DNA of 64,000 bases from Ulvibacterium sp. (GTDB taxonomy: Bacteria > Bacteroidota > Bacteroidia > Flavobacteriales > Flavobacteriaceae): assembly GCF_028285715.1 (NCBI RefSeq), contig NZ_JANQOO010000020.1, positions 496,001-560,000 of the forward strand, given 5' to 3'. Positions 29,545-61,250 of the stretch are shown piece after piece. The position numbers and the translations under genes were made by a program. Within the stretch, counting starts at the first letter, position 1. Each line of letters starts with the position of its first letter. The notes under the pieces are model-generated. The model did no database searches. It saw only the letters and a program-made list of their open reading frames with translations, and was not told the origin of the DNA.

Positions 29545-30477
29545 ATGAAAAAGTTAGTATTTGCACTAGCAGCATCCCTTATGATATCTTTTGTTTCGGC
29601 ACAGACGCTTGAAGAACTCAAGACCGAACAGAAGGCCAAAAAGGATTCCATAGCTGATATTCAGGGAAGGGTCGATGGCCTACAAGCGCAGATCGATGCC
29701 TTTCCAGGTTGGAAAAAGGGTGCCTTTGGTACCATTGGTGCCAACATTTCAGGATTCAACAACTGGTATGCCCAGGGAACACCTAATAACTCCTCCGGTA
29801 ACATTGGGGTTACCCTTAATGCCTTTGCCAATCTGAACCAGGAAAAGTTTTTTTGGAGAAATTCGGGAAACATTAACCTACAATGGGTAAAGTTGGACGA
29901 TAAGGATAGTGATACGGATGATGAGAGCTTCAACGGAACTACGGATGTCTTTAATCTTACTTCCCTTTACGGATACAAATTGAGCGAAAAATTCGCGATT
30001 TCGGCTTTAGGGGAATATCGAACCACGATTATAAACAACTTCAATGATCCTGGTTATTTGGATTTGGGAATTGGGGCCACCTGGACGCCTATTGCGGATA
30101 TGGTCGTGGTTATTCACCCGTTCAACTATAATTTTGTGTTCAGTAGTGAGGAGGACATTTATGAATCTTCTTCGGGGGCCAAAATCTTAGTGGATTATAC
30201 CCGTCAAATTGGGAATGTTAACTTTAAGACCAATTTTTCTACCTTCCAAAGCTATGAGAATGGGGATCTTTCCAACTGGACATGGATCAATTCTTTCGGA
30301 TATACTTTGTGGAACGGGATAGGGCTTGGCTTTGAATTTGGTCTTAGGAACAACAAACAGGAAGCCTTGGATTATGCCATAAACAAAGCACCTACGCCAG
30401 ATCCTGATGCGACCTTTGATAGCATTGATAACGATTTGCAGACCTATTGGATTTTTGGACTCAATTATTCCTTTTAA
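29545..30477 (+). CDS. DUF3078 outer-membrane beta-barrel protein
   Basis: A 310-residue protein with a signal peptide (KKLVFALAASLMISFVSAQ) and a short coiled-coil segment (residues 22-50, TLEELKTEQKAKKDSIADIQ). A beta-barrel domain follows that starts FPGWKKGAFGTIGANISGFNNWYAQG, the hallmark of DUF3078, and ends in aromatic YWIFGLNYSF as outer-membrane barrels do. It has its own promoter and terminator. It is located just after the suf region, but no functional link can be shown. Confidence 0.9.
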   Translation: MKKLVFALAASLMISFVSAQTLEELKTEQKAKKDSIADIQGRVDGLQAQIDAFPGWKKGAFGTIGANISGFNNWYAQGTPNNSSGNIGVTLNAFANLNQEKFFWRNSGNINLQWVKLDDKDSDTDDESFNGTTDVFNLTSLYGYKLSEKFAISALGEYRTTIINNFNDPGYLDLGIGATWTPIADMVVVIHPFNYNFVFSSEEDIYESSSGAKILVDYTRQIGNVNFKTNFSTFQSYENGDLSNWTWINSFGYTLWNGIGLGFEFGLRNNKQEALDYAINKAPTPDPDATFDSIDNDLQTYWIFGLNYSF

Positions 30478-30502: not shown

Positions 30503-30534
30503 AAAAGGCCCGACAATTTTGTCGGGCCTTTTCT
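30503..30534 (+). terminator. Intrinsic terminator after the DUF3078 gene
   Basis: AAAAGGCCCGAC (30503-30514) pairs with GTCGGGCCTTTT (30521-30532) around a loop of six bases that can pair in part. It stands 26 bases after the stop codon. Confidence 0.9.
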
Positions 30535-30640
30535 GGTAAGTAGGGTACATTTAATTTGTTTGCACAGTCAAATAAAATCGAACTCAATATTCGGTAAAGA
30601 TTAGGGCGGTGCCATCCCAATAACTATCGGGACCAATTTT

Positions 30641-30792
30641 CGTTAAGTTACGTTCTCTTCTGGGACAATAAGTAAACCTTTAAATACCCTGCTAAAGTAG
30701 CTTCATAGTGTACCACGCTTAAATTTTTGTTGTGAAAAGGATACTATTTGTTGTGAACAACGTTAAAATGAGTGGTATCATCGATGAAATGC
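30641..30792 (+). repeat. Composite element, copy A
   Basis: In order: GTTAAGTT (30642-30649), TAAATTTTT, GTTGTGAA (30729-30736), a second GTTGTGAA exactly 21 bases on (30750-30757), then ATCGATGAAATGC (30780-30792). Copy B has the same parts at nearly the same spacings (86 against 87, 21 against 21, 30 against 28 bases). Confidence 0.55.
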
Positions 30793-30825
30793 TCAAAAAG
30801 CACTTCAATTGTTACCAAATAAAAA

Positions 30826-30858
30826 AAGCCCGGACTGTGGGGTACGGGCCATTTTTTT
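30826..30858 (+). terminator. Orphan intrinsic terminator downstream of copy A
   Basis: GCCCG (30828-30832) pairs with CGGGC (30845-30849) across a 12-base loop, with As before and seven Ts after (30852-30858). No coding gene lies between it and the previous terminator, so a short noncoding transcript is implied. Confidence 0.6.
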
Positions 30859-30938
30859 AGTTAAGTAGGCTATTGTAAAATCTGGTCTAAGCTTTGTAGG
30901 TTCGAATTTTGGTTTTGGGGAAACCTCCATTCTTTTTC

Positions 30939-31085
30939 AGTTAAGTTCAAGGTGTCGGTTTGGGGTCAACACTATCACTTAATTACACTGTAAATGTAGT
31001 ACGGATATCCAACAGTTCTAAATTATTGTTGTGAACCGGTCTTAATTTGTTGTGAAAAAAATGAACGGCCAATTTCATCGATGAA
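30939..31085 (+). repeat. Composite element, copy B
   Basis: Contains GTTAAGTT (30940-30947), TAAATTATT, GTTGTGAA at 31028-31035 and again 21 bases on at 31049-31056, and TTCATCGATGAA (31074-31085), a 12-base perfect palindrome. The unit is offset about 299 bases from copy A. No clear terminator follows on the forward strand. Confidence 0.55.
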
Positions 31086-31113: not shown

Positions 31114-32325
31114 CTATTGGTAATCTAGATTTTCTGGATATAGGAAATTATTGTAGGGGAATCGGCTGATGTGGATTTCCCGCACGGCCTGATATACCTT
31201 GCTACGAAACTCATCCAGATTATCCTTGTTTAGTGCAGAAATAAAAAGCACATTGTCGCCCAAACGCTGCATCCATGTCCGCTTCCACTCCTCCATTGTA
31301 AAATGTCTTGAGGTTTTTTCGGTAATTAAATCGTCTTCATCCAAGGTCTCATGTGAATATTGGTCTATTTTGTTGAAAACCATGATCACAGGTTTTTCGG
31401 CGCTATTGATTTCGTCTAAAATCTGGTTTACGGAATCTATGTGCTCCTCAAATTGGGAGTGGGAGATGTCCACTACATGTAGTAATAGATCTGCTTCCCG
31501 TACTTCGTCCAAGGTACTTTTAAAACTCTCTACCAATTGGGTCGGAAGTTTCCGGATAAATCCAACGGTATCGCTCAACAAAAAAGGAAGATTACCGATG
31601 ACTACTTTCCGTACCGTGGTATCCAAGGTGGCAAAAAGTTTGTTCTCGGCAAAAACATCACTTTTACTTATCACGTTCATTAAGGTAGATTTACCCACAT
31701 TGGTATAGCCCACGAGTGCCGCACGGACCAAGGAACCTCGGTTGCCGCGTTGGGTCTCCATTTGTTTATCTATCTTGGCAAGCTTCTTTTTTAACAAGGA
31801 AATCCGGTCTCGAACAATACGACGGTCAGTCTCAATTTCCGTTTCCCCGGGTCCACGCATCCCAATACCCCCGCGCTGACGCTCCAAATGGGTCCATAGA
31901 CCGGTCAATCGCGGTAGTAGATATTCATATTGCGCAAGTTCTACCTGGGTACGGGCATAACTGGTCTGTGCACGTTGGGCAAAAATATCCAGTATAAGTC
32001 CGGTGCGATCGAGGATTTTGCAACGCAACAGCTTTTCAATGTTGTTTTGTTGTGCCGGGGAGAGCTCGTCATCAAAAATCACGGACCCTATTTCATGCTG
32101 TTTAACATAGGCCTCAACCTCCTTCATCTTTCCGCTACCAATGTAGGTTTTGGGATTGGGGATTTCTACACGTTGTACAAAACGTTTGGTGACTTCTCCG
32201 CCGGCCGTATAGGTCAAAAACTCCAGTTCATCCAAATATTCGGTTACCTTTTCCTCGTTTTGTCCCCTATTGATAACCCCGATTAAAACGGCCTGCTCAT
32301 ACTCTATGTGCTGTTTTTCTAACAT
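31114..32325 (-). CDS. hflX: GTPase HflX
   Basis: Ribosome-associated GTPase that splits stalled or idle 70S ribosomes, 403 residues from the ATG at 32325 (the longer frame starts at TTG). The N-terminal HflX domain contains TYIGSGKMKEV and FDDELSPAQQNNIE. A coiled coil follows the RGGIGMRGPGETEIETDRR linker, and the G domain has P-loop GYTNVGKS (206-213), DTVGFIRKLP and NKID. An exact -7 box, TAAATTTG (32342-32349, reverse strand), lies 17 bases upstream of the ATG. Transcribed away from the nuclease gene at 32403. Confidence 0.96.
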   Translation of the reverse strand: MLEKQHIEYEQAVLIGVINRGQNEEKVTEYLDELEFLTYTAGGEVTKRFVQRVEIPNPKTYIGSGKMKEVEAYVKQHEIGSVIFDDELSPAQQNNIEKLLRCKILDRTGLILDIFAQRAQTSYARTQVELAQYEYLLPRLTGLWTHLERQRGGIGMRGPGETEIETDRRIVRDRISLLKKKLAKIDKQMETQRGNRGSLVRAALVGYTNVGKSTLMNVISKSDVFAENKLFATLDTTVRKVVIGNLPFLLSDTVGFIRKLPTQLVESFKSTLDEVREADLLLHVVDISHSQFEEHIDSVNQILDEINSAEKPVIMVFNKIDQYSHETLDEDDLITEKTSRHFTMEEWKRTWMQRLGDNVLFISALNKDNLDEFRSKVYQAVREIHISRFPYNNFLYPENLDYQ

Positions 32326-32341
32326 ATGAAATCGCAAAGTG

Positions 32342-60353: not shown

Positions 60354-61250
60354 ATGTCGTTTAGGACTACCCTGAAATCGCTATCCGATTTTTTTTCGCA
60401 ACCGTACCCTTTCTATTATCAGGGAAAAGACTTGTCCATCATCGTTTTTGCGGTTTTTGTGTTCGTGGTTCTTTTCAATTTTTTTGTAGAGCCTTTTAAT
60501 GTGAGTCGTGATGAGCACATCATGCACTTTTTTTGGATTTCGGTCATCCATTCCCTGGTCCCCATACCGGTTTTGTTCTTGCTTGTGGTAGGCTTACGGT
60601 ATTGGGATACGGCAAGCGATTCATGGAATGTGGGCAAGGAAACACTTTTGCTCCTAAGCTTTTTCCTTTTCACCGGTATTGGACAATTTCTGATTCGGGA
60701 TATAATTTATGACAATCCCAATAACTGGTCATGGGGCTATTTTTTTGAGGAAATTCGGAACACCTTTATTGTGGGGATTATATTGATGCTGATATTGATT
60801 CCCTTAAACTTCAATCGGCTGTATCTGCGGAACCAACAAAGAGCTGCTCAATTTCAAGGGAAGGCCGAATCCGCTTTCGAGGAGGATAAAAAAGAGCGTT
60901 TCCAGTCACTCTTTATTAGAACACAGGTAAAAGGCGACGATTTTGAGTTCTATCCAAATGAGTTCATTTTTGCGCGATCGGATAAGAATTATCTGGAGAT
61001 TTTCCTGAAGAAAGAAGGAAAATTGTCAAAACAAGTTAAACGGATGACCATAAAGGAGTTGGATGTGCAGTTGTCCCGACTTTCCTGTATTACCAGAATA
61101 CACCGGTCCTATTTGGTAAATCTGAATCAAATTGTCAAAGTTTCCGGTAACGCCCAGGGATATCGTTTGAAACTAAGGGACGCGGCCGATATCCTTCCCG
61201 TTTCCCGGAACATGATTCCTCATTTTGAACAGCAAATGCGGCAAGTTTAA
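60354..61250 (+). CDS. Membrane-anchored LytTR transcription regulator
   Basis: A 298-residue protein. Four transmembrane helices (about residues 25-45, 60-85, 95-120 and 130-155) are followed by a linker and a C-terminal LytTR DNA-binding domain of about 100 residues: FYPNEFIFARSDKNYLEIFLKK, LSRLSCITRIHRSYLVNLNQIVKVSGNAQGYRLKLR and LPVSRNMIPHFEQQM. It is a one-component membrane regulator; no separate kinase is evident. LytTR proteins usually bind paired direct repeats about 21 bases apart. The acyltransferase gene follows 95 bases later. Confidence 0.92.
   Translation: MSFRTTLKSLSDFFSQPYPFYYQGKDLSIIVFAVFVFVVLFNFFVEPFNVSRDEHIMHFFWISVIHSLVPIPVLFLLVVGLRYWDTASDSWNVGKETLLLLSFFLFTGIGQFLIRDIIYDNPNNWSWGYFFEEIRNTFIVGIILMLILIPLNFNRLYLRNQQRAAQFQGKAESAFEEDKKERFQSLFIRTQVKGDDFEFYPNEFIFARSDKNYLEIFLKKEGKLSKQVKRMTIKELDVQLSRLSCITRIHRSYLVNLNQIVKVSGNAQGYRLKLRDAADILPVSRNMIPHFEQQMRQV

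Follow-up and report, generated by a model that had tools for sequence, protein, structure and literature searches.

Results

The window analyzed here, a 64,000-nucleotide stretch of the Ulvibacterium sp. genome, carries two diverged copies of a composite element between hflX (31114–32337, minus strand; Pfam GTP-bdg_N, GTP-bdg_M, and MMR_HSR1) and a convergent DUF3078 gene (29545–30477, plus strand; PF11276). At the heart of each copy is a pair of direct repeats, GTTGTGAA-N13-GTTGTGAA, found exactly at 30729–30757 (copy A) and 31028–31056 (copy B); with up to two mismatches the window holds two matches against 0.05 expected, a number reached in 0 of 100 shuffles. The pairs are accompanied by GTTAAGTT (30642 in A and 30940 in B), TAAATTnTT (30720 and 31019), and ATCGATGAA (30780 and 31077). 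A sequence-only reading of this DNA had described the same two copies, with every box where we find it and with spacings (A/B) of 21/21 and 30/28 bases, which hold, and of 86/87, which measure 87/88. Its view of the element as a duplicated functional unit holds, each copy corresponding to a promoter followed by the first part of a predicted sRNA gene.

The direction in which the elements had been read must, however, be reversed. A conserved stretch flanks the aligned box pairs on one side only, which is the minus-strand side of the window, and on that strand the first base of a TAnnTTTR box falls exactly at +29 past the boxes in 30 of 49 sites picked by the boxes alone, with the −7 box ignored; no −7 box peak was seen on the opposite side of the same sites. 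TAnnTTTG is the mapped −7 consensus of the flavobacterial sigma-A, located at −12 to −5 (PMC9723704). Since conservation is one-sided and the −7 box stands at +29, the box order reported earlier is that of a promoter taken backwards, and GTTAAGTT, a conserved motif within the RNA, is AACTTAAC in its proper orientation. On the minus strand, each copy thus reads TTCATCGATGA, TTCACAAC, N13, TTCACAAC, N29, the TAnnTTTR box, an RNA of 166–185 nt, and a terminator. In unit B, the accessory TTCATCGATGAA element (31074–31085) is followed by box 1 (31049–31056, exact, about −70 to −63), box 2 (31028–31035, exact, 21 bp from box 1, about −49 to −42), and, 29 bp after box 2, a −7 box TACATTTA of the flavobacterial consensus (30991–30998). 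Unit A has its accessory TTCATCGATGA element at 30778–30788, exact boxes 1 and 2 at 30750–30757 and 30729–30736, and a −7 box TACTTTAG with one mismatch at 30692–30699, where genus-mates have TACATTCG.

The accessory elements of both units belong to a TCGATGAA-like class which precedes box 1 by 25/26 or 35/36 bp, two positions differing by one helical turn, in about 60 of 141 sites, and anywhere within 70 bp upstream in 61 of 141 sites against 2.6 in shuffles (141 of the 142 sites described below had enough upstream sequence for this count). The promoters are devoid of a −33 TTG element (14/142 sites vs. 20.5 in shuffled sequence), as expected of activator-dependent promoters. The few remaining −7 spacings, +50 and +60/61, are about whole helical turns off. 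A conserved family of proteins of ~124 aa (L018, L024, L028, L031, and L054) has its boxes two to three helical turns farther from the −7 box, at these same spacings, and the TCGATGAA element nearer the promoter; the first 70 residues of this family had no Pfam match.

Behind the promoter of unit B we predict a small RNA of ~166 nt (RNA B, 30821–30986, minus strand), its start set 12 nt past the first base of the −7 box and its end at a hairpin (30828–30849) followed by T7. RNA A (30503–30687, minus strand, ~185 nt) is likewise predicted and is conserved in genus-mates and two other genera; its terminator hairpin (30507–30528) can work for either strand and, for that reason, probably serves the DUF3078 gene as well. 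The earlier suggestion of a short RNA is upheld by the sequence. Both copies have terminators on the minus strand, and the hairpin that had been given to copy A as a terminator instead ends the RNA of copy B. A short plus-strand RNA ending near 30849, as originally proposed, could draw on the plus-strand T-run that this hairpin also possesses, but we consider it highly implausible: the plus side has no −7 box at a fixed place, copy B is not followed by a plus-strand terminator, and it is toward the minus-strand side that the sequence is conserved.

The order hflX-RNA-DUF3078 is kept across many genera for RNA B, frequently with a tandem second copy. A hairpin and T-run end all 49 RNA B loci tested, with differing stems, compared with 0/49 in shuffles. 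RNA A folds better than its shuffles (z −2.67); RNA B as a whole does not (z −1.06), and an alignment made with MAFFT, which misaligns the terminators, showed no covariation and little conserved structure in it beyond the terminator. Single-stranded C-rich segments (CCCCAAATC, GAACTTAACCGA, and CCTACTTAAC) are conserved in the RNAs. Rfam models, among them 6S-Flavo and Flavo-1, gave nothing above the gathering score in the window; the best weak matches were to unrelated families. A tRNA/tmRNA search returned nothing.

In sequence, the two units have what is expected of sRNA genes, i.e., a promoter of their own, an intrinsic terminator, and no conserved ORF. They might nonetheless be short mRNAs for small proteins, since at 23 loci these promoters stand before a conserved 35-aa ORF and copy B of the window genome holds a 41-aa ORF. 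This is very unlikely, because that ORF is missing from RNA B of other genera, RNA A of the window genome has no ORF of at least 25 aa, and indels of any size change the length and sequence of the RNAs. As for an untranscribed DNA repeat, either a mobile element remnant or a chromosome-organization site, it would suit the multiple and commonly tandem copies, but the fixed −7 box, the terminators with variable stems, the kept synteny, the genes with a start codon that follow other copies, and the strict link to one regulator make it extremely implausible. Two further candidates were dropped. A replication origin or terminus element had come into question while the sites looked clustered, until the sites proved to be followed by −7 boxes, RNAs, and genes (DnaA boxes in the window showed no clear enrichment, 27 vs. 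20.9 expected); a CRISPR repeat or integron attC, suggested by the look of GTTGTGAA, was rejected because the paired boxes enclose variable sequence and belong to promoters.

Genome-wide occurrence was assessed by pattern searches. Absence of further copies or of conservation in relatives, which the sequence-only reading had named as counting against it, was not what we found: one more exact pair lies in the same genome, 38 kb away, and the box pair alone is present in 22 of 149 genomes of the family, with no match to the reversed pattern. With the −7 box added and up to two mismatches allowed, 26/149 family genomes have sites, mostly 3–11 copies each, and the reversed control again had none. 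Among the matches listed, nearly every named genome with an exact site belongs to the Flavobacteriaceae, and the genera include Zobellia, Maribacter, Arenibacter, Allomuricauda, Eudoraea, Pricia, Croceivirga, Ulvibacterium, and others. An order-wide draw of different genomes added sites in one more genus (G248 and G311); it also yielded three reversed-pattern matches in other families, which places single two-mismatch matches in other families at chance level.

The predicted targets of the module are RNA families B and A, an RNA of ~75 nt, and the genes of a 35-aa protein, of a collagen-like protein, of an ECF sigma factor, and of histidine kinases. The window genome has nine sites at up to three mismatches once the −7 box is included, among them those of RNAs A and B, the conserved 35-aa protein, a collagen-repeat protein, a sigma-70 family (ECF) gene, a PAS kinase followed by a receiver protein, a Por_Secre_tail protein, a DUF6747 protein, and a TPR kinase. 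Distinct exact sites number 142: 44 lie between LytTR response-regulator and TPR-HisKA_2 kinase genes on the same strand, and five before that kinase with the kinase alone in view. Forty more belong to hflX-DUF3078 and 14 to other copies of RNA B, 23 precede the 35-aa gene, three precede collagen-like genes, and 13 are elsewhere.

The small protein behind the promoter at 23 loci, of 33–35 aa and the MEAQMNHAPTKEEIQVYKNDFFSGIVMLTKKLFML type (e.g., L001:1501-1750, G000:C11:488717 onward), had no Pfam match; at several of these loci a second conserved ORF comes next, which resembles an acetyltransferase. Tandem arrays of three to four promoter units were observed at G098:C1:265169-265897, G059:C640:55723-56797, and G052:C5:200589-201586, those of G098 and G059 directly downstream of the LytTR gene.

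Segments resembling CCCCAAATC are found in RNA B, often twice, in the short RNA, and, just before the start codon, in several mRNAs of the regulon, altogether at 81 of 141 sites against one in shuffles; in the sites of L001-L212 the motif lies about +14 to +28 after the −7 box. The repeated segments hint at a common RNA partner, with the limit that CCCAAA is common before genes anyway, being enriched upstream of genes generally (18/188 vs. 2.0).

The spacing of the boxes had been likened to the two-turn direct repeats bound by LytTR dimers, and the 21-bp step with the −7 box at +29 indeed agrees with the geometry of LytTR-controlled promoters of the VirR/AgrA type, in which two direct repeats about two helical turns apart lie at a fixed distance upstream of the promoter. 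The protein class proposed by the sequence-only reading stands, but the gene it had singled out, at 60354, does not: this is a membrane-type LytTR gene without receiver domain, and no link to the sites was found. The genome has 28 LytTR genes, and the one tied to the sites is a different one, that of a response regulator adjoining a TPR-HisKA_2 kinase (G000:C9:422876-423625), and in the window genome the site at this locus has one mismatch. Of the 149 family genomes, the 26 with sites, and no others, have this LytTR protein at 59% identity or more (Fisher test, 1.3e-29), an association partly confounded by ancestry; less related genomes agree, regulator and sites occurring together in G079, G032, G098, and G062, and neither in G144, G145, G023, and G096. 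The LytTR proteins at the 44 site-bearing loci are mostly 86–92% identical, and in each of the two held-out genomes, G248 and G311, a site adjoins the LytTR gene (90 and 87%, respectively). In five genomes from outside the family, each with a single match at two mismatches, no such gene was found. Furthermore, all of the 15 family genomes (of 149) matched by a promoter-free model of RNA B have the kinase-linked regulator. In some genera, the site at the two-component locus precedes a predicted short RNA that ends before the kinase, with a terminator in 16/49 cases against one in shuffles; for Allomuricauda, transcription from the site seems to continue into the kinase. The published LytTR half-site consensus is [TA][AC][CA]GTTN[AG][TG]. 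As had been remarked of this sequence, the fit of GTTGTGAA to it is poor, by eye extending little beyond the GTT core, the consensus having been derived from other phyla.

The boxes could instead be bound by another regulator, with the same promoters and RNAs, e.g., by an orphan LytTR response regulator encoded between priA and rpsF or by a non-LytTR protein, since AraC-type proteins use 21-bp direct repeats too. In most of 22 genomes, the orphan's own promoter has degraded boxes at equal spacing, in a pattern that equals or approaches TACACA-N15-TTYACAWC-N29-TAnTTTGY, and it could thus be that the circuit involves more than one LytTR protein. However, the orphan is present in 115/149 family genomes, most of them without any site, and it was demoted as main regulator because its presence does not track the sites; the kinase-linked LytTR matches them one to one, with an exact site at 44 of its loci. 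We therefore regard another regulator as improbable and the orphan near priA as probably a target or relative of the circuit, given the degraded boxes at the right spacing before its gene. Its sequence (L062:1489-2181 and upstream) is 90–97% identical in most of the clade.

Discussion

Copies A and B are, with high probability, two tandem minus-strand sRNA genes between hflX and DUF3078 with activator-type promoters, for which the kinase-linked LytTR protein is the likely activator. Because this promoter is confined to flavobacteria carrying one LytTR two-component system, that system is likely to be the switch that controls a set of regulatory RNAs not described before. We envisage that a signal would be relayed by the TPR-HisKA_2 kinase to the LytTR response regulator, which, once phosphorylated, would bind both boxes as a dimer on one helix face and recruit RNA polymerase, giving rise to several RNA families and to the transcripts of some protein genes; LytTR-driven transcription at its own kinase locus would provide feedback. 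In each unit, the boxes would sit at about −70 and −49, with the −7 box 29 bp further on, and the transcript would end at a terminator after 166–185 nt.

The RNAs are most likely trans-acting regulators presenting single-stranded C-rich segments. They may, as well as base pairing, act as decoys that titrate a translation regulator from the mRNAs of their own regulon, which we judge unlikely, though it would mean a Csr/Rsm-like circuit in Bacteroidota.

The closest parallel is VirR/VirS of Clostridium perfringens, in which paired direct repeats lie on one helix face at a fixed distance immediately upstream of the promoter (PMC2838878). As with VR-RNA in that system, a LytTR response regulator, paired repeats at a fixed distance, and a regulatory RNA among the targets come together here (PMC2838878), and that the circuit works like VirR and VR-RNA is our best reading of a comparison made at the level of architecture. 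The present system differs in the sequence of its boxes, in a Bacteroidota −7 promoter without a −33 element, in having several RNA families in tandem copies, and in a kinase with TPR and HisKA_2 domains. The AgrA protein of Staphylococcus aureus is also a LytTR regulator that acts through paired repeats on a regulatory RNA, RNAIII, with autoregulation. Our circuit shares these features with it, but peptide-signaling genes were not seen beside the LytTR gene, and the RNA family, which has no Rfam match, is different.

Among Bacteroidota, Bacteroides species possess FopS, which acts with RbpB and consists of paralogous sRNAs described as transcribed from promoters of sigma-ABfr, possibly under an unknown regulator, and which is stated as deposited in Rfam in the portion of that report available to us (PMC11697453). 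FopS and the RNAs described here are alike in being multi-copy sRNAs that have a terminator and whose conserved 5′ part is unstructured (PMC11697453). In the same portion, neither TTCACAAC boxes nor a two-component link are described for FopS, and an R1 seed sequence and RbpB binding mark the FopS/GibS sRNAs; the comparison is by description only. Rfp18 of Flavobacterium psychrophilum is another conserved flavobacterial sRNA, reported as strongly structured (PMC9723704), whereas RNA B is weakly structured, again as compared by description only. No description of this regulon turned up in a literature search that covered few subscription papers.

The transcriptional switch is known for only a few small RNAs of Bacteroidota. 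For the marine Zobellia/Maribacter/Muricauda group, our results offer a testable pair, composed of one LytTR two-component system on one side and dispersed RNA genes, proteins, and an ECF sigma factor on the other, together with a cis-code of boxes, spacing, and accessory element with which any genome of this group can be searched.
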